Source: Fistulifera solaris
Taxonomy: Eukaryota; Bacillariophyta; Bacillariophyceae; Naviculales; Stauroneidaceae
Length of the DNA stretch: 64,000 bases
Assembly (NCBI GenBank): GCA_030295235.1
Contig: AP026136.1
Coordinates: 1,054,001-1,118,000 of the forward strand
Reading direction: 5' to 3'
A program made the translations under genes and the position numbers. Below the pieces are notes generated by a model. It ran no database searches. It was not told the DNA's origin and worked only from the letters and a program-made list of their open reading frames with translations. Positions 34,742-43,145 of this stretch are shown piece by piece; the stretch's first letter is position 1; every line of letters starts with the position of its first letter.

Positions 34742-35700
34742 GGCAATGAAGCAATCAAAGTAACAGAGATCACAGCATAAACAGTTGCTTGATAAGAGAA
34801 AGTGAGAGCTGAAAAGATGTCTTCTGTCGTCTTTTCACTGGTTCAATGAGCTGAATCTACTCGTATTTCTTTATTTTAGGAGTGAATAGCCGGGGTAATT
34901 ATTTTGTCGTAGACATGTTCTTTCGAATTATTTTGTCGCGTCATACGCCGAGCCCTCAACGAGAGACTATATGCTAATGTGTAGTATTCTACGGATAGCG
35001 GAGTATCTTTCATCTTTTACTATTGACCATTGACTAAGTAACGGTTTTATACCTTATGTTGTTCGAAAGAGTCTTTGTGTCTTTGTCCAAAAGCCAAAAG
35101 CGCCTTAAACCTTAAACCATAAACGTCCGGATGATGTTCTGTGTTCTCCAGTTCTCCACTTCAATGTGATGTGTATTGCTGTATTGCTCATTGCTCGGTT
35201 GTCGGTTGTGTCTTCTTCGCATCAAATAGGGTACCTGGTAGGGTAGGGGTAGGGGGTAGGCATACTTCACGCTTCTGCTCTTTACTCTTTACTTCTCTTC
35301 CAAGAACGAAGAATATAAAATACGTACACCTTACACAGTGCTGAAGTTCCCGTGACTATACTTCTCTTCCAAGAACGAAGAATATAAAATACGTACACCT
35401 TACACAGTGCTGAAGTTCCCGTGACTATAACGTGAGCAAAGATGACTAACCTGTAACCTTGATTAGAGTTGACGATGATTAGTTTGGCGATTGGCGATTG
35501 GTGACTGACTGTAAGGCGCACGTTATACCTGGGAGCTTGGCGGAAACTGCTCACTCCGAGCGGTTTCAGAATTTCGACCTTGTATGTCGTACCGTTATAC
35601 ACCCAATTAAAAAGGAACTTCTTTTCGGCGATAATTGTTTACTCTCAGCGCGCGGAACGGTTATATTACTTAGCAGTTGAAACGTGTTAAAAGTTTATTA
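34742..35700. other. Intergenic, repeat-rich, no gene seen
   Basis: About 960 bp between the tandem-family genes and the transposon-like unit. It contains a G-rich stretch at 35238-35260 (GTAGGGTAGGGGTAGGGGG) that could form a G-quadruplex, and an exact 2 x 69 bp tandem duplication listed separately. Open frames are short and arise from the duplication. Confidence 0.45.
35292..35429 (+). repeat. Exact tandem duplication, 2 x 69 bp
   Basis: Units 35292-35360 and 35361-35429 are identical over 69 bp, each starting CTTCTCTTCCAAGAACG and ending CCCGTGACTATA. Identity suggests a recent slippage or unequal-exchange event, or an assembly artefact. There is no coding potential. Confidence 0.95.
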
Positions 35701-35827
35701 GCTAGAGAGAGAAATCTCTCTATAGAGAGAGAAATCTCGCTTTAGAGAGATTTTTCTCACTATAGCGAGAGAAATCTCTCTATAGAGAGATTTTTCTCTC
35801 TATAGCGAGAAAAAATCTCTCTTCTCG
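35701..35827. repeat. Left palindromic repeat array
   Basis: Six or so imperfect units of about 18-20 bp of the form AGAGAGAAATCTCTCTATAG. Each is nearly self-complementary, and spacers vary (CTATAG, GCTTTAG, CACTATAGCG). Transcripts or single strands of this array would fold into stacked hairpins. Confidence 0.85.
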
Positions 35828-35998
35828 AAATGCACGTGTGTCCAAATAAATATTTCAATTAAGGTTAAACTTGATCCGTCAATTCATTTTTCTCCAATCA
35901 AGAATCATCCAATGAACAAACACAAAAACAAAAAGACTTCGGAGTTGTACACACTCTTCTATTTAATGAACTACAATTCGTCCTCGAATATCTACTCA

Positions 35999-37263
35999 TC
36001 AATCAACCTCTTCAACAGGCTCATCGGGGCTGAGCTTTGGAAAGACGAATAGCACGTTTGCAGGCCGAGTGCCATTCTTGGCTCTGTGTGCTGGTTTACG
36101 ACGATCCAATTTCAACTTCACTTTTGTTTTTACTGTTACAGGCCCGCTTTTGATCCGTGGCTCATCTTGGACAAAGTTTGTCGTCTCCATGCTGACTGAA
36201 GAGTCTGGCGAGTTTCCGCGGTCTGGGGCTGCTTCGTTTTCCATCAGCAATAATGTGCCGCTATTCTCAACAAGCCCGTCATCGTCTACTGGGGCCATTT
36301 CAAGCTGAAGCATCCGATTGCTTGCCCGTTCAAACTGTTGCATGTCATGATCCACTGCGCTCTCGAGCCGCAAGATGGCCTGTTGTTCGTCAGCGAGCTG
36401 TGACTGCAGAAGCCGTAATCGTTCACTAATCCAGCCTTGTTTAATCTCCAGTGCATCTCGGTTGCATCTCAGTTCATTGAAAGCGTGCTAGAAACATTCC
36501 ACTCATACTCGTCCAACATGGCTTTCTCTTCAAGCTTCAGGACCGCATGCTGTTGTCCAGCCGCATGTGCATGAAGCTGCTGCAGTTTTTCCCGGCCTTG
36601 TTTCAGCTGCATCTCTAATCCTTTCAGTCGCTCATTCTGCTCAAGAACTCGATTCTTTTGATTGTGAAGCTCGCGTTCATTGTAGTTGACGCTGTCTTGA
36701 GGGAGCAACACTGCACCTTGCTTGTCAGTCAGCTGTGCATTGAGAAGCTGCAATTCGCCTTGTTTGTTTGCTTTCTTGATTTCAAGAGCATTGACATCTT
36801 CAGTCAACACACGAAGGTGCTCGGCTTTTTCTCGCTTCTTCTGGTTGCTGAGAGTAACAAGTCGCTCGAGCAACATTTTCTCTTGCTCTTTCACTCGAAT
36901 CTGTTCTTCGACGGCTTGAAGATGCGCTTGATCTAGACGGAGGCTTTCCGTGGATTCAACGGAATATTGCTCGAGCTTGATACGGTCGTGCTCAACCTGC
37001 TGAAGGCTTTTCAGAATCTGATCGCGTTTGAGATGGACATCTTTGTCTTGGCACTGAACTTCTTCCAGTTTTGTGAACAAGCCCGACTTTGCCTGCTCCT
37101 GTTGTTTGAGGAGATGCCGTGGGTGGTCATCTTCTTCCTTAAGGTCCTGTGTGTTGCTTGCCATGCTTGCCGCGAACGTCAAGAGTAGAAGGCGGATCAA
37201 TTCGCTTGTATGATCGAATTGATGCTCGATGATAGTATGATAAATCTGTAGTAACATAGACAA
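35999..37263 (-). CDS. Long coiled-coil accessory protein of the transposon unit
   Basis: An almost uninterrupted coiled coil of about 400 residues. It starts at 37263 or at MASNTQDLKEEDDHPRH. Segments such as LDQAHLQAVEEQIRVKEQEK and LELQLKQ-type heptads run to about 36485, where one frame change leads into ALEIKQGWISERLRLLQ and a disordered acidic tail ending SPDEPVEEVD. No enzymatic motif is visible. It lies head to tail behind the interrupted minus-strand gene at 37284-38678, so the two may be cotranscribed. Its role in transposition, perhaps assembly of a protein-DNA complex, is inference. Confidence 0.5.
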
Positions 37264-37283
37264 GTCAAAATTGAAGAATTAGC

Positions 37284-38678
37284 TTAGTTGGTAGACATAG
37301 TATCATCGCTGCTGTCGTCGTCTGAGTTACCTTCTTCGTCACTCAATTCCAAGTCTAATTCTTGCTCACGTTCCGCGTTCGACTTCAAAGTTTCTTCCGG
37401 CAAAGAGCTTCTTGTTCACCCAACAACTGGCCAGTAGTTTCTTCTCCGCCCGACTTGCGTGGCCGAGCGCTTCTTTTGCTTCGGGTCTTTGCTAGTGTTA
37501 TGGATTTTCATCATACGCTTCATCCGCTCTGCCAATTCATCTAGCTTATCCTTTTTAGCAGGAGTTGAAGTTTTCTCAAAAGAGTCATCAATCTGCACTC
37601 GCCACATCACGTAGATAACGGTCCACTTCATCTTCTTGAACTTGGTAGGCAACACGTGCTGAATCGCCGTCAGCTCGCTTCCATGGATCTTACTCTGCCC
37701 ATCTGAGGAACCGGCGATCATCAAACACACAGCACTTGTGATTCAAATTGAGCTGGACGGTGCGAGTTTGAAGTACGGGGGTTTCACGGCTTTGTGGCAA
37801 AGGTCTGTGTCATCGCCATAGCCTCGCCGAAGTACATGTCGGTCGCTTGCCCATACTTGTCCTCGTCCCGTTCAACGTCGGCCATGATATCAGGATTCAT
37901 GTAGAAATATGCCGGTGCCGTCGGAATGGTAAGGCTAATGCTCATACCATCCGGTGCCAGCCGTGCAGAATACTTCCCAATGTCGTTTGGATCGAGAACA
38001 GGCAAGCGCCAAATCAAACGCTTTCGCAACCCCCTTCTTCCGAGTCATGTGCACAAACGGAGTAGCTATCCCGAGGATGCTTTCCGGATACAAGCGGTTT
38101 TGGAACACATCGACCTCAATCTCAACTACGTCGTCAAAAAGCAATGACGCCATGTTCTCAGTCGCCTTTGCAAATGATCGAGGCAACGAGCTTGTTTTTC
38201 TGCGCTGCAGGTGAAGACTCCAATGCAATCAAAGTGTCTTGATCACTGGAGGAGGATGAAGACTGGCTTGAGGGACTGTCTGGACTGGTGTCTGAATTGT
38301 CTCGATCTGTAGAAGGGCGGATACCAGCTTTCTCTAGCACTGACTGGTAATCTTCAATCGAAAGTAATCTCCACTTGGCTGTAATGTGTTAGAAGGAGCT
38401 TTGAAAACAAGAAGAATAGTAGGAAACCATACCTTTTGAATTTTGTTTTCCACTTGGCGTTTTCCTCTTTCGCCTCACGCCGTAAAGTCGACTCTTGGAC
38501 TTGATGAGATTTCCCAACTTGAAGCGGGGCTCTCGGCTCAAATCTTTCGTAAAGCCTCCGGCTTGTTCGATGTCGCGAAGAAGCTCGTTGAGTATTGGCT
38601 CTGGAAGTCCGAACGAAGAGAGAGAGCGCTGGCTTGTTTTGTTGATGCAGATCTAGTTGCAGAGGATGATTTCTTCAT
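37284..38678 (-). pseudogene. Interrupted accessory gene of the transposon unit (diatom-specific family)
   Basis: Protein-like pieces in several frames, all minus strand and in a consistent order. Exon 1 starts MKKSSSATRSASTK and includes LPEPILNELLRDIEQAGGF and LIKSKSRLYGVRRKRK. A GT-AG intron lies at about 38381-38432. Next come WRLLSIEDYQSVLEKAGI, a Ser-rich linker, LLFDDVVEIEVDVFQNRL, IWRLPVLDPNDIGKYSARL and KKMKWTVIYVMWRVQIDD, with an acidic tail ending DDSSDDTMSTN. I recall a multicopy family of this layout in diatom genomes, function unknown. About six frame changes are needed over 1.4 kb, several times the rate in nearby host genes, so I read it as decaying. Confidence 0.55.
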
Positions 38679-39240
38679 CTCCGCAAAAATAATGCGTTCT
38701 GAGTTCTGAATCTGGTTGATCTGGGCCTCTTTTGGACAACGATGTACGATGTATCATGTATCCTTGATGTTCAGGGTTTTCTGTTCTCTCAAACTTCGCA
38801 AGTCGCAAGAATCCTAAAAACGTCCGCTTTATTTTAATTTTGTATTGCCCTAATGCCTAGTTGCGTAAGAACAGAAGCCGCTATCGTATGAAGTGTAGCA
38901 AATTCGTTTTCTAGATATGCCAGGTTCCTAATATATCGAGTTACTGTTTCATCCTAAATCACGAATTCCTAAATGAGTGTCTTGGGGCAATAATAATTGC
39001 TCGGTAAAAAGTGACAAACGACAACGACAAAACACAAAACACACGTTGATCAAAAACCAAAAACATTATCATTGTTTAAGTTTCCTTCAAGCAACTTTCA
39101 CTTTTCAGCTTTTGTTGCATTGATTCTGATGATTCTGATCGAAGAAACTTTGAAGGCTGACAATCTGTGTGACTAAATCAACAAAACCTACCCGGGGCCC
39201 GCTTTGCTTCTTGTTCTTTCAACGCTCTTTTCTGGCTACA

Positions 39241-40261
39241 ATGGCCTTTCTCTTTACACCCAAGGAGATGATGGTGAAAGGCCTTCTCTTGATACCCAGC
39301 TATGATGTCAGTCGCATTAAAAAGCTCTGTCAAAACACCAAGCTGAAAGACTTTAAGCATTGGTATGGAGCAACGCCGGAAGTTAGCAGCGCAATTTGGA
39401 AAGATCTCCAAACGTGTGACAATGTCTCGAATCGAATCAATCCACGAAAGGTAAGTTCCTTGCACTCGATCACAATAAAAACACCATACCTCTAAACCTT
39501 TACATGGATAGGCTCGTGTGGAATACTTTTTCATGTCTTTACATTTCTTGAGAAAGTATCCCACAGGTGAAGAACAAGCGAAGTTGTTCAACATCAATCG
39601 AGAGACGGTGTCGACTTGGACATGGTTCTTTCTCGAAAAGATCGCAGTCTTGGAGAGCCAGAAGATTGTTTGGCCGAAAGAGTGGGAAAAAGAGCGGTAC
39701 GCTGCTGCAAGGAAGAAAGGGAAAGACCAGCAAGATGTCTATGCTGTTAGCTTCGGATGTTCGGTCGATGGAACTCATGGTCGTATCCACGAACCGTCAG
39801 TGGGAGAGCCGCAGTCAAAGAACCCAATCTACTTCTCGCACAAATCTCATGGACCTGCCTTTGCTTACGAATTTGCAATAGATATTTTCCAAGATCGTCT
39901 TGTTTGGATGAATGGGCCTTTTCCTGCGTCTACCCCCGATAGAGAAATCTTCAAAAATGGTTTGATGAAAATGATACCCGATGGTATGCGTGTTGTGGCA
40001 GATAGCGGATACTCGGGAGAGAAATTGAAGCATATTATTAGTGGCCCAAATCCCCGTGACAGCAAAAAGTTGCGTAAATTCAAGTCGCGAGCAAGGTCGC
40101 GTCAGGAAGATTTCAATGCGCGTCTCAAGAACTACAAGATTTGTGCCGAAACGTTTCGCCATGATCGATACCGTAAAAAGAGACACAAGGCATCGTGGAC
40201 AGCTGTAGCTATTATATGCCAGTATCGAATTGAGCATGAAAAAACGTTTTGGAGTGTTTAA
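39241..40261 (+). CDS. DDE transposase, PHIS superfamily (Harbinger/IS5-like)
   Basis: Two exons, 39241-39450 and 39512-40261, with a 61-nt GT-AG intron; the joined frame is open for 319 residues. A helix-turn-helix-like segment (EEQAKLFNINRETVSTW) precedes the RNase H-like core. Catalytic residues: Asp in GCSVDGTHGRIHEP, Asp in RVVADSGYSGEKL, and Glu in SRQEDFNARLKNYK, followed by FRHDRYRKKRHK. The D-G-T-H and N-A-R-L-K blocks are those of DDE_Tnp_4-type enzymes. The triad and the reading frame look complete, so it could be functional. It lies between divergent and convergent minus-strand accessory genes inside the repeat-bounded unit. The ATG at 39241 is chosen because the upstream in-frame codon is GTG. 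Confidence 0.85.
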
Positions 40262-40327
40262 AGAAAGATAGAAGAACTAAAGTTTTCAATGCTGAACATT
40301 GAGCAAACCACTATTTATACATTGTAT

Positions 40328-40867
40328 CTACTTCTTAGATTTCTTACTCTTCTTCAACTTCTTTGATTTAAGATAAGCTATGAAGAGCTCGCGACGTTTC
40401 TCTTGCCCGATATGCTGGCGAAACGTACTGCGATCGAAAACTTGGTACGCCAAATTGCTCAGGTAAAGCTTCTTAAAACCCAACGATTCGTCAAGCTTGG
40501 CTCTCACATCACAACGAAGCAATCGTTGAGCTTCAGATCCATCCCAAACAGGCTTTCCACGCCTATCAATTACTTGCTTGGGGAACACGGTACGATCCCG
40601 ACGAAGAGCATCTTCGTCCGCGGCCGCAGAGGCATACAGTTCGAGATGCTCCTTCCGAAGTCTTTTGAGGTTGGGAGAGAAGTTCTTGAAAGCAAACTGC
40701 TGAAAAAGTTCCCGCCGATCAGAAAGATTGTAGACCTCTTCCGCTGACATTTTGGTTGAGTCAATAGGCACGTGGCCGCTCACAAGATCATTGACAAGCT
40801 GCTTCTTCGCTTTGGACTTTATCCAGAGGTTTCCTTCCTTATCCTTTGGTCCCTCCCTTTTGGCCAT
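40328..40867 (-). CDS. Small basic accessory protein of the transposon unit (diatom multicopy family)
   Basis: A complete 179-residue frame ending convergently 66 bp from the transposase stop. Recognisable blocks are KAKKQLVNDLVSGHVP, then EEVYNLSDRRELFQQFAFKN, RGKPVWDGSEAQRLLRCDV, FKKLYLSNLAYQVFDRSTF and RQHIGQEKRRELFIAYL. The tail is Lys-rich. I recall many copies of this W-x-G-S-x-A-Q-x-L-L family in diatom genomes, without known function. Its position beside an intact transposase inside the repeat-bounded unit suggests that it travels with the element, perhaps as a DNA-binding partner; that is inference. Confidence 0.75.
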   Translation of the reverse strand: MAKREGPKDKEGNLWIKSKAKKQLVNDLVSGHVPIDSTKMSAEEVYNLSDRRELFQQFAFKNFSPNLKRLRKEHLELYASAAADEDALRRDRTVFPKQVIDRRGKPVWDGSEAQRLLRCDVRAKLDESLGFKKLYLSNLAYQVFDRSTFRQHIGQEKRRELFIAYLKSKKLKKSKKSKK

Positions 40868-41090
40868 TTTTCGATGCAGACCTTTTAAAAGAAATTCCGG
40901 CTGATATCAAATTACTCTTTGTTGAATGGAAACAATCTTCTTATTTCAATGGACTTGTCAAGAAGAACAAATACGGAGTATAATGTGTTTTGAGTGCGAC
41001 GAGTTTTCGTCGAGTTCGTTAAACATTGAAAAGCCTTAATTAAAAAGCGTCATATTTTCTGTTGAGGTTCGTGGCGTACTCATTTGCGCT

Positions 41091-41146
41091 AGAGAGAGAA
41101 ATCTCACTTTAGAGAGAGAAATCTCACTATAGAGAGAAATCTCTCT
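41091..41146. repeat. Right palindromic repeat array
   Basis: Three units of AGAGAGAAATCTC(AC or TC)T joined by TATAG or TTTAG, opening with the same GCTAGAGAGAGAAATCTC as the left array. Shorter than the left array (about 56 against 127 bp). Confidence 0.8.
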
Positions 41147-41417
41147 ATGGCAACAAGCAAAATTACATAGGGAATAAGGTGATTTACTATTATTGTATAA
41201 AACGTGAACTAGAACCGGATGCTGGTTGATACAGTTGTGTACTAAATTGATTCTTTTGTGTGATGACATGTCATATAGACTAAAAGTGTAAAGATCTTGT
41301 CACGGAGAGACTTCCGACAAGCACCCTGGTACATTTTCATCATTCGATCTTGCTAAAAAACGCTTGTAATTACATTGTATGTTGGAAGGTAATAATTGTT
41401 GATTCATAAATAAAAAA

Positions 41418-43145
41418 ATGCAACAAGTTCGATCAAGGCACCGATTTCAATTTGAACAACTGCCTCAGACAGTGTCACCCGCGTCATCGAAACAGCCAAC
41501 CAGAAGGAGGAAACAGGCATTTTCGTACCAACCATGGCTTTTGGGTGCGACGCGACGGCACAGTGCCGTACTTGCAATGCTTGGGGCCTTCTTTTCCTGC
41601 TAGCTATGCTTTCGATGACCAGGGTATTATCAATAAGAAGACAATTGGGCGACGCTAACTACCAATCACGAACGACTATTGTGTTTCCTCTTCTGCAAAA
41701 TACAAGGGATTTTCACAAGCCCAGTTCAACCATGGATACCCATCGCTCGCCTAATTTCGGCGACGTGAAGGTTAATTTATATACAAGCGACGGTATGGAA
41801 AAGATTCGTCGAATTTACAGGGATATTAAAGCAGAAAGAGGAGAATCGCTCGACAGTAAGCACCCAGAAAGCGAGCGCTCGTTCTTTGATTATATTTACA
41901 ACTTCGATGACGACTATCTCCGAAATCCATTGTGGACATGGGAGGATGATAAGATTCAGGATGAAAAGACATGTCGTCGAAATGCTTGGCATCGAAAAAG
42001 TCCCATGGATTGCAACTCCATGCACGAGCTGGACTTGCAAGGTCTATTGACCGAAGGAAAAGTGAAGGCATTGGGGTAAGCAACTATTCTTCGACGTGTT
42101 CACAACGCTTTTCGATTTATCACTGATGCCTCGTACGTCCAGCAAAGGAGGTTTCCGGGACGTCTTCTTAGTTCGCCACGGTGATGGCAGAAAGTTCGAA
42201 GAAGTTGTTTTCAAACAATACCATTTTGACTCAAATTACGATCATGAAGACTTTGAATACATGCGAATCGACTCTCTAGTGACCGAACTCTTCACGAGCA
42301 GCTCCCTCTTTCTAAACATTTATAGGTACGTAATAAAGTTTGTCAGAAGGACTTCCTATCCCGACTTCGACTTACTTTTGTGCGCAGCAATTGCGGTTTA
42401 TCCACCATGGTAGAGGCTATGGGCGACGGTTGCGTCGAAGATTACGCAGTACCATTACAGAAAGAACGAGGCTATATTGAACTAGACGACAAAGATGATG
42501 TGGACCCGAAAAACAATCTGACCATCACGCAAAAGGTCAACTTTGCTCTGGACATGGCCGAGTCGCTCGCTATGATGCACAATTATCCGGGTGGGGTGAT
42601 CGTTCATGATGACGTGCATCTGGAACAGTTCCTCCTCACAAAAGATCATATGCATGTCAGAATTCAAGATTTTAATCGAGCCGAAATCATGTTGTGGAAC
42701 AGTGAAGATGAGGAATATTGTCGCTATCGAAATGGACCTGGACACGGCACCGTAAGTACAACAGACGAACCTCCTGACTTATTCATACTAAAGCGTTCTC
42801 ATACATTTCACAATTTAGTGGAGATCACCCGAGGAGTATAGAGACTTGCCATTGGACGAGAAAATTGACGTATGGAGTTTAGGATCCAATTTATATGCTA
42901 TGCTAACGGGTCTGAATCCATTTTACGAGATCGAGTCCGGAAAAGCCGTTAAGCAGAAAATAAAGGAAGGAAAGATACCTCCAATCGACCCCCGTTATCG
43001 CAAGCGAAGCTTTGGAGAACAAAAGTTGGTGGAAGCTATAGAACACTGCTGGGTAGCTGACCGCAATAAAAGGAGCAACATTTACGACGTGGTAAAAATT
43101 CTCCGCGAAGCCGCTACGAATCCAACTGGCAAAGCGACATTATAA
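41418..43145 (+). CDS. Membrane-anchored atypical protein kinase-like protein
   Basis: Four exons; introns 42076-42142, 42326-42387 and 42752-42818. The N-terminus is basic, then a transmembrane segment (SAVLAMLGAFF and LLAMLSMTRVL, joined if the T4 run 41592-41595 is one base longer). The kinase fold follows: glycine loop GKGGFRDVFLV (rebuilt by splicing, which supports that junction), VVFKQYHF with the ATP-site Lys, HDDVHLEQFLL in place of HRDLKxxN, DFNRAE in place of DFG, WRSPEEYRD (APE region) and DVWSLGSNLYAMLTG. Catalytic Asp and metal Asp are kept, but Arg, Lys and Asn of the catalytic loop are changed. This H-x-D...DFN pattern recurs in stramenopile kinase-like proteins. Activity is uncertain. 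Confidence 0.82.

Follow-up and report, generated by a model that had tools for sequence, protein, structure and literature searches.

The 64,000-nucleotide stretch of Fistulifera solaris DNA analysed here (contig AP026136.1, positions 1,054,001 to 1,118,000; C12:1054001-1118000 of the 51.7-Mb, 61-contig assembly), hereafter the window, carries a recently mobile DNA transposon. It is a member of the PHIS superfamily (PIF/Harbinger-related) and of the NuwaI type by its CWG target-site duplications. We consider it likely that this is a 5.8-kb autonomous, or until recently autonomous, cut-and-paste CWG-target (NuwaI-like) PHIS transposon, in which an accessory partner protein replaces the Myb/SANT protein encoded by open reading frame 1 (ORF1) of its relatives. 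Inverted repeats, CWG duplications, insertion at unrelated sites, short derivatives, an empty related locus and intact genes for the transposase and the accessory protein were all observed directly. The first-pass annotation of this DNA had described a DNA transposon with accessory genes, and the defined ends, the target-site duplications and the empty related locus bear this out.

Structure and copies of the mobile unit

Within the window the mobile unit occupies positions 35532-41325 (5794 bp), bounded by inverted-repeat ends and CTG target duplications. Alignment of full copies, which had been proposed in the first-pass annotation as a way to find termini and duplications, gave both. The window copy and a second copy on contig C18 form a single end-to-end alignment of 5842 columns with 98.8% identity, which begins and ends at the same two points, while the flanks are unrelated. 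The C18 copy lies at a site unrelated to the window site and bears a CAG duplication at both ends; this reading of the duplications (CTG/CTG in the window, CAG/CAG in C18) assigns the outermost G at either end to the target. The terminal inverted repeats of the window copy match each other at 12 of 14 positions (Table 1).

Ends of the same kind are present in all 14 copies examined, a count that leaves out three short copies (C3:1867k, C3:890k and C40:419k) as well as C17 and C41, for which a single end was found. Both ends were read in each of the 14; eleven have identical 3-bp CWG duplications, three have non-identical ones (C23, CAG/CTG; C1, CAG/CTG; C19:268k, GAG/CAG), and none has a TWA duplication. 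Two of these copies are full, with a 4.9-kb interior, and the other 12 are short (1.0-1.8 kb) derivatives that keep both ends and both subterminal arrays. In C12 as in C18, the same pair of ends encloses all four genes, which are therefore all part of the mobile unit.

Table 1. Features of the transposon, with positions in the window
Feature	Position	Strand	Remarks
Target-site duplication CTG, left	35529..35531		C18 counterpart is CAG at both ends
Left terminal inverted repeat GGAGCTTGGCGGAA	35532..35545	+	Start of homology between C12 and C18; terminus shared by short copies
Left subterminal array, ~6 palindromic 20-bp units	35703..35822		GAGA-TCTC matches: 13 (overlapping) close to the left end, 0 in the interior
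Coiled-coil gene	35999..37263	-	Broken near 36483 in the window; start codon provisional
Gene 2 (the 'decayed' gene)	37284..38678	-	Frame breaks in both copies
Transposase exon 1	39241..39450	+	
Transposase intron, 61 nt	39451..39511	+	GT..AG
Transposase exon 2	39512..40261	+	PF13359 domain; D156, D234, E269
Accessory W-x-G-S-x-A-Q protein, 179 aa	40328..40867	-	Intact; basic; model predicts two helical repeats
Right subterminal array, ~3 palindromic 20-bp units	41090..41148		C18 copy longer by one unit
Right terminal inverted repeat GGTGCTTGTCGGAA, read inward	41312..41325	-	
Target-site duplication CTG, right	41326..41328		

Empty related locus

When the two window flanks were joined and searched, C11:1156246-1156665 matched the right flank at 88%, from 52 bases right of the junction, and this search returned no match of the left flank at C11. 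In the 611 bases read upstream on C11, pieces of the left flank align in order, and the closest of them ends some 96 bases short of the junction on its left side; no match to the element was found in this stretch. Judged by eye, the shared sequence extends on either side to some 25 bases from the junction, and the triplet used as target is not conserved. We read C11 as a homoeologous empty site rather than a strain empty site, because F. solaris has been reported to be allopolyploid, with 42 homoeologous chromosome pairs (PMC5935921; here and below, papers are cited from the parts of their text available to us).

Two further features of the flanks were noted. A kinase-like gene, recognised by eye at 41534-43145, begins some 200 bp to the right of the insertion and has a counterpart on C11. 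To the left of the element, roughly 100 bp from its end, a 69-bp unit is present in two tandem copies, 99% identical (35287-35424).

Transposase

An intact, intron-bearing DDE transposase had been reported at this locus, and this was confirmed. The spliced window protein is identical at 319/319 residues to F. solaris protein P0046 (FisN_UnNu085) and matches PF13359 (DDE_Tnp_4 type) above the cut-off, with an expect value (E) of 6.4e-10. The columns of D156, D234 and E269 are invariant across three element families. The transposase encoded at C15 is 100% identical to FisN_30Hu064, and its identity is 36% to the window transposase and 60% to that of C7. There are 285 relatives at E <= 1e-10; among the best 120 listed, those with names come from Fistulifera and Mayamaea.

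In the genome, 15 transposase matches fall in 13 loci, namely C12, C18, C15, C7 and nine others, the latter being mostly reduced to the C-terminal part. Eight of these nine loci (all but C8:897k), each read as 10 kb, contain no accessory match at E < 0.01. Three transposase ORFs that cover the C-terminal part (about 172 aa each), with near-equal scores, lie at different sites (C10:14059, C6:1904449 and C8:940850; L039-L041) and may form a short family of their own or represent duplication of a host gene.

Accessory protein

The W-x-G-S-x-A-Q gene is intact, as had been annotated. Its product has an isoelectric point (pI) of 10.1, a lysine-rich tail and no Pfam match; in the family as a whole, pI exceeds 8 in 36 of 40 members. 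The predicted model (pLDDT 93.4, pTM 0.63) comprises two helical repeats, and no solved structure was convincingly similar to it. The accessory proteins of C7 and C15 have one more repeat unit at the N-terminus. As for Myb/SANT, the Pfam families listed for 27 accessory members include no match, with a weak fold comparison, and Pfam gave none for the window proteins or for the N-terminus of gene 2.

The profile search outside the genome scored 7997 candidates and retained 40 proteins at E <= 0.001, one of which is the window's own. Named relatives come from Fistulifera and Epithemia clementina; the rest are unnamed and mostly located on short contigs. By eye, the C7 protein resembles FisN_3Hu596. 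Sequence identity to the window protein is 35% for C15 and 32% for C7, and that between C7 and C15 is 50%.

Within the genome the family occupies at least eight loci (C12, C18, C15, C7, C11, C13, C35:45.6k and C35:483k), the genome searches scoring the best candidates only. At the first four of these loci, which represent three divergent element families, the accessory gene lies within 350 bp of a same-clade transposase. At C35:45.6k a degenerate transposase is situated 5.3 kb away; no same-clade transposase was found in the 10 kb read at C11 and C35:483k, and none of the transposase matches listed for the genome is near C13:206k. Position, conservation and basic charge make the accessory protein the candidate for the ORF1 role, and it probably serves as a DNA-binding partner of the transposase.

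Subterminal arrays

The palindromic AGAGAGAAATCTC arrays seen in the first-pass annotation are real: the window holds 7 matches with at most one mismatch, compared with 0.22 expected in shuffled sequence. They are not the boundaries for which they had been taken, as the homology with C18 continues beyond them for about 170 bp on either side, up to the terminal inverted repeats; the distance from array to end is about 170 bp on the left and 177 bp on the right. In 14/14 copies, GAGA-TCTC palindromes are confined to the 450 bp next to both ends and occur nowhere else in the element. The exact 13-mer has 13 matches in the whole genome, 11 of them within the two full copies. Since this total is no higher than that of the reversed control pattern (12 forward, 7 reverse), it is ordinary, and what is special is the clustering.

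The diverged relatives have repeats of their own. At C7, a 20-bp array, AAAAATCTGCCTCCAGGCAG, stands directly upstream of the accessory gene, and all five TCTGC-GCAGA palindromes are at this array (with a looser pattern, two single matches appear elsewhere). At C15, GGTCGC/GCGACC repeats flank the two genes on both sides, with a few scattered copies; none passes the GCGA-TCGC gapped-palindrome test. That C7 and C15 have their own, different arrays beside these genes is the best hint that array and partner protein change together between element families. Weighing against such a co-change, C7 shows no second array and its inverted repeats are doubtful (4/60 shuffles), and no inverted repeats were found for C15. 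A possible TAA duplication at C7 is weak.

Gene 2, the coiled-coil gene and their frame breaks

A long coiled-coil gene had been annotated at the locus. Its ORF is indeed present, but in the window it is itself cut short: by comparison with C18, the ORF at 35999-36373 is the continuation of the one at 36469-37263 on the minus strand. The C18 copy is whole at this point, near 36483, but broken elsewhere. The window ORF has no Pfam match at E <= 1, and the C18 piece has no significant one. In its own genome, the gene was found in the two full copies and in one relic on C17 near a telomere.

Gene 2, annotated as a decayed member of a multicopy diatom family, is broken but is not multicopy here, since 11 of its 11 matches in its own genome lie within the two full copies. 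It probably has a two-exon structure. Three relatives were found outside the genome (P0041-P0043, 227-282 aa); they align with 52-59% of the query at 54-59% identity. Both genes probably encode cargo or auxiliary proteins of this one element family; as a guess, they could act in assembly or regulation of the end complex.

Both genes are broken in the C12 and C18 copies, largely at different places, although some breaks in gene 2 are common to both, and one of these, near 38015 in comparison with P0041-P0043, is beside a CpG. The two copies differ by 26 events, which come to 23 without the target-duplication base and two events in the right array. Of these 23, 18 are no more than 2 bp from a CpG in one or the other copy, compared with 7.1 expected (0 of 5000 placements), although this count is inflated by events that themselves create a CpG; with window CpGs only, there are 14 compared with 7.0 expected (p 0.0028). 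The events comprise 12 plain indels of 1-2 bases, one 10-base indel, three mixed events, four three-base blocks and three single substitutions. Twenty of the 23 fall in 35935-38612, where the CpG density is 54 per kb; that of the accessory gene, which has zero differences between C12 and C18, is 56 per kb.

This distribution suggests that the breaks in both genes are, on balance, better explained as consensus errors, linked to methylation, at modified CpG in a two-copy sequence. The other explanation, that the element acquired gene 2 and the coiled-coil gene in a single recent capture and is now losing them, as true pseudogenes in both copies, is possible and, in our judgement, the less probable of the two. 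It draws on the breakage of both genes in both copies, partly at common points in gene 2, and on the finding of gene 2 at no other locus of the genome. Against pseudogene decay stand the excess of events near CpG, the 16 of 23 events that change length with so few single substitutions, and the gene 2 relatives P0041-P0043, which are open over the part covered. Should consensus error be the cause, frame breaks of two-copy elements in other genome assemblies may also be artefacts.

Diverged and partial relatives

The elements at C7 and C15 have in common a KOW-like gene, recognised by eye (L062:533-1006, minus strand, and L031:2629-3066, plus strand), with 26% identity between the two; a genome search found none beyond these elements. 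A truncated copy of the C15-type element, with 82% DNA identity and a repeated end region, was noted at L045:4687-5683. Two partial relatives of the window element stand in tandem at C17:1153248-1161692 (covered by L014, L022, L024 and L038 apart from a gap between them), beside an AGGGTT telomere, and are 97% identical over about 1.6 kb. Another element, of 2156 bp, at C10:798465-800620 (L046:3966-6121), has a broken transposase, ends matching at 14/14 positions and CAG duplications. Accessory-like matches downstream of its transposase are very weak (E 0.015, 0.15 and 0.35) and may be due to chance or to a decayed second gene.

It had been suggested that the gene families always travel together, as parts of one large multi-gene transposon. 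In this genome the suggestion is not supported. The accessory gene lies within 1 kb of a transposase in four of its eight loci, gene 2 belongs to one element family only, the coiled-coil gene is limited to the two full copies and the C17 relic, and C7 and C15 share the KOW-like gene instead. What survives is the association of the W-x-G-S-x-A-Q protein with this transposase clade in three element families, whereas the other genes do not generalise; the larger claim is thus partly borne out, for one family out of three and within this genome.

Proposed mechanism and alternatives

We propose that the basic accessory protein, with its two helical repeats, takes the place of the Myb/SANT protein (ORF1) found in known relatives. 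By binding the palindromic units that lie inside each of the two ends, it would recruit the transposase to these ends, and it would also aid the entry of the transposase into the nucleus. The transposase would then cut at the terminal repeats and insert at CWG.

An alternative, which seems to us unlikely though worth weighing, is that the accessory gene is passenger cargo, the transposase acting alone and the arrays binding the transposase or a host factor. Three observations favour it over a partner role: accessory genes occur without a nearby same-clade transposase at C11, C13 and C35:483k; Spy elements, also of the superfamily, possess a single ORF (PMC4482050); and the element at C10:798465-800620 combines fully matching ends and CAG duplications with the lack of a clear accessory gene. 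Against it, all four copies whose transposase reaches into the N-terminal half (C10:799k apart) carry the accessory gene within 350 bp, across families with accessory proteins 32-50% identical. A far less probable account dispenses with transposition altogether and takes the DNA for a segmental duplication or for a repeat-bearing locus of the host. That there are only two full copies would suit it, yet the ends are sharp and carry inverted repeats and CWG duplications, short derivatives and an empty related locus exist, and the presence of shared ends in unrelated flanks refutes it. We retain a transposon with an accessory partner protein as the best explanation.

More tentatively, diatoms may hold a distinct PHIS branch, in which a modular W-x-N-S-x-A-R repeat protein (2-3 units, undescribed fold) would replace Myb/SANT and recognise family-specific arrays. 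Such elements might gather KOW-like, gene 2 and coiled-coil genes, becoming three- to four-gene transposons. The combination of a repeat-unit protein with a repeat-unit DNA array offers a testable pair for studying how a PHIS transposase could find its ends without Myb/SANT.

Comparison with known transposon groups

The element most resembles the NuwaI group (Han et al. 2015, PMC4482050), with which it shares a DDE transposase of the superfamily, the 5'-CWG-3' duplication, short terminal inverted repeats and a second ORF. According to that paper, the CWG duplication defines NuwaI within PHIS, the group is mainly animal, and its second ORFs mostly have Myb/SANT domains. The F. solaris element differs from it in the lack of a Myb/SANT match in Pfam among the 27 accessory members, in two more genes and in its diatom host.

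With PIF/Harbinger elements (Ping/Pong, Harbinger3_DR) it shares two separate proteins, short derivatives and a 3-bp duplication (PMC2836001). In that group, the ORF1 product of Harbinger3 binds the ends, interacts with the transposase and carries it into the nucleus, Ping and Pong need both proteins, and the transposase has no obvious binding domain (PMC2836001). The target there is TWA (PMC4482050) and here CWG, so membership in PIF/Harbinger sensu stricto was rejected, TWA duplications being found in 0/14 copies. ORF1 is moreover Myb-like there, and virtually all characterised coding elements have two genes, whereas this one has four. Related transposases also occur in ISL2EU and Spy (PMC4482050). 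ISL2EU, with an AT duplication and a YqaJ ORF, was excluded by the CWG duplications and by the absence of a YqaJ match in the five window pieces scanned; Spy, which has a single ORF and, according to the title of a 2014 paper, no duplication, was excluded by the CWG duplications and the several ORFs.

Among diatoms, Harbinger-like elements are DNA transposons known from Thalassiosira pseudonana (PMC2806351); unlike here, the text available for them describes no accessory genes, arrays or target duplications. No multi-gene element of such kind in a diatom was found among the titles and beginnings of abstracts listed for open-licence papers, which is weak evidence of novelty. What appears to be new is a NuwaI-type element in a diatom, with a partner protein lacking a Myb/SANT match and with two extra genes. 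With it, the range of CWG-target PHIS elements comes to include diatoms, and a probable role as transposition partners emerges for a class of diatom proteins so far called 'hypothetical'.

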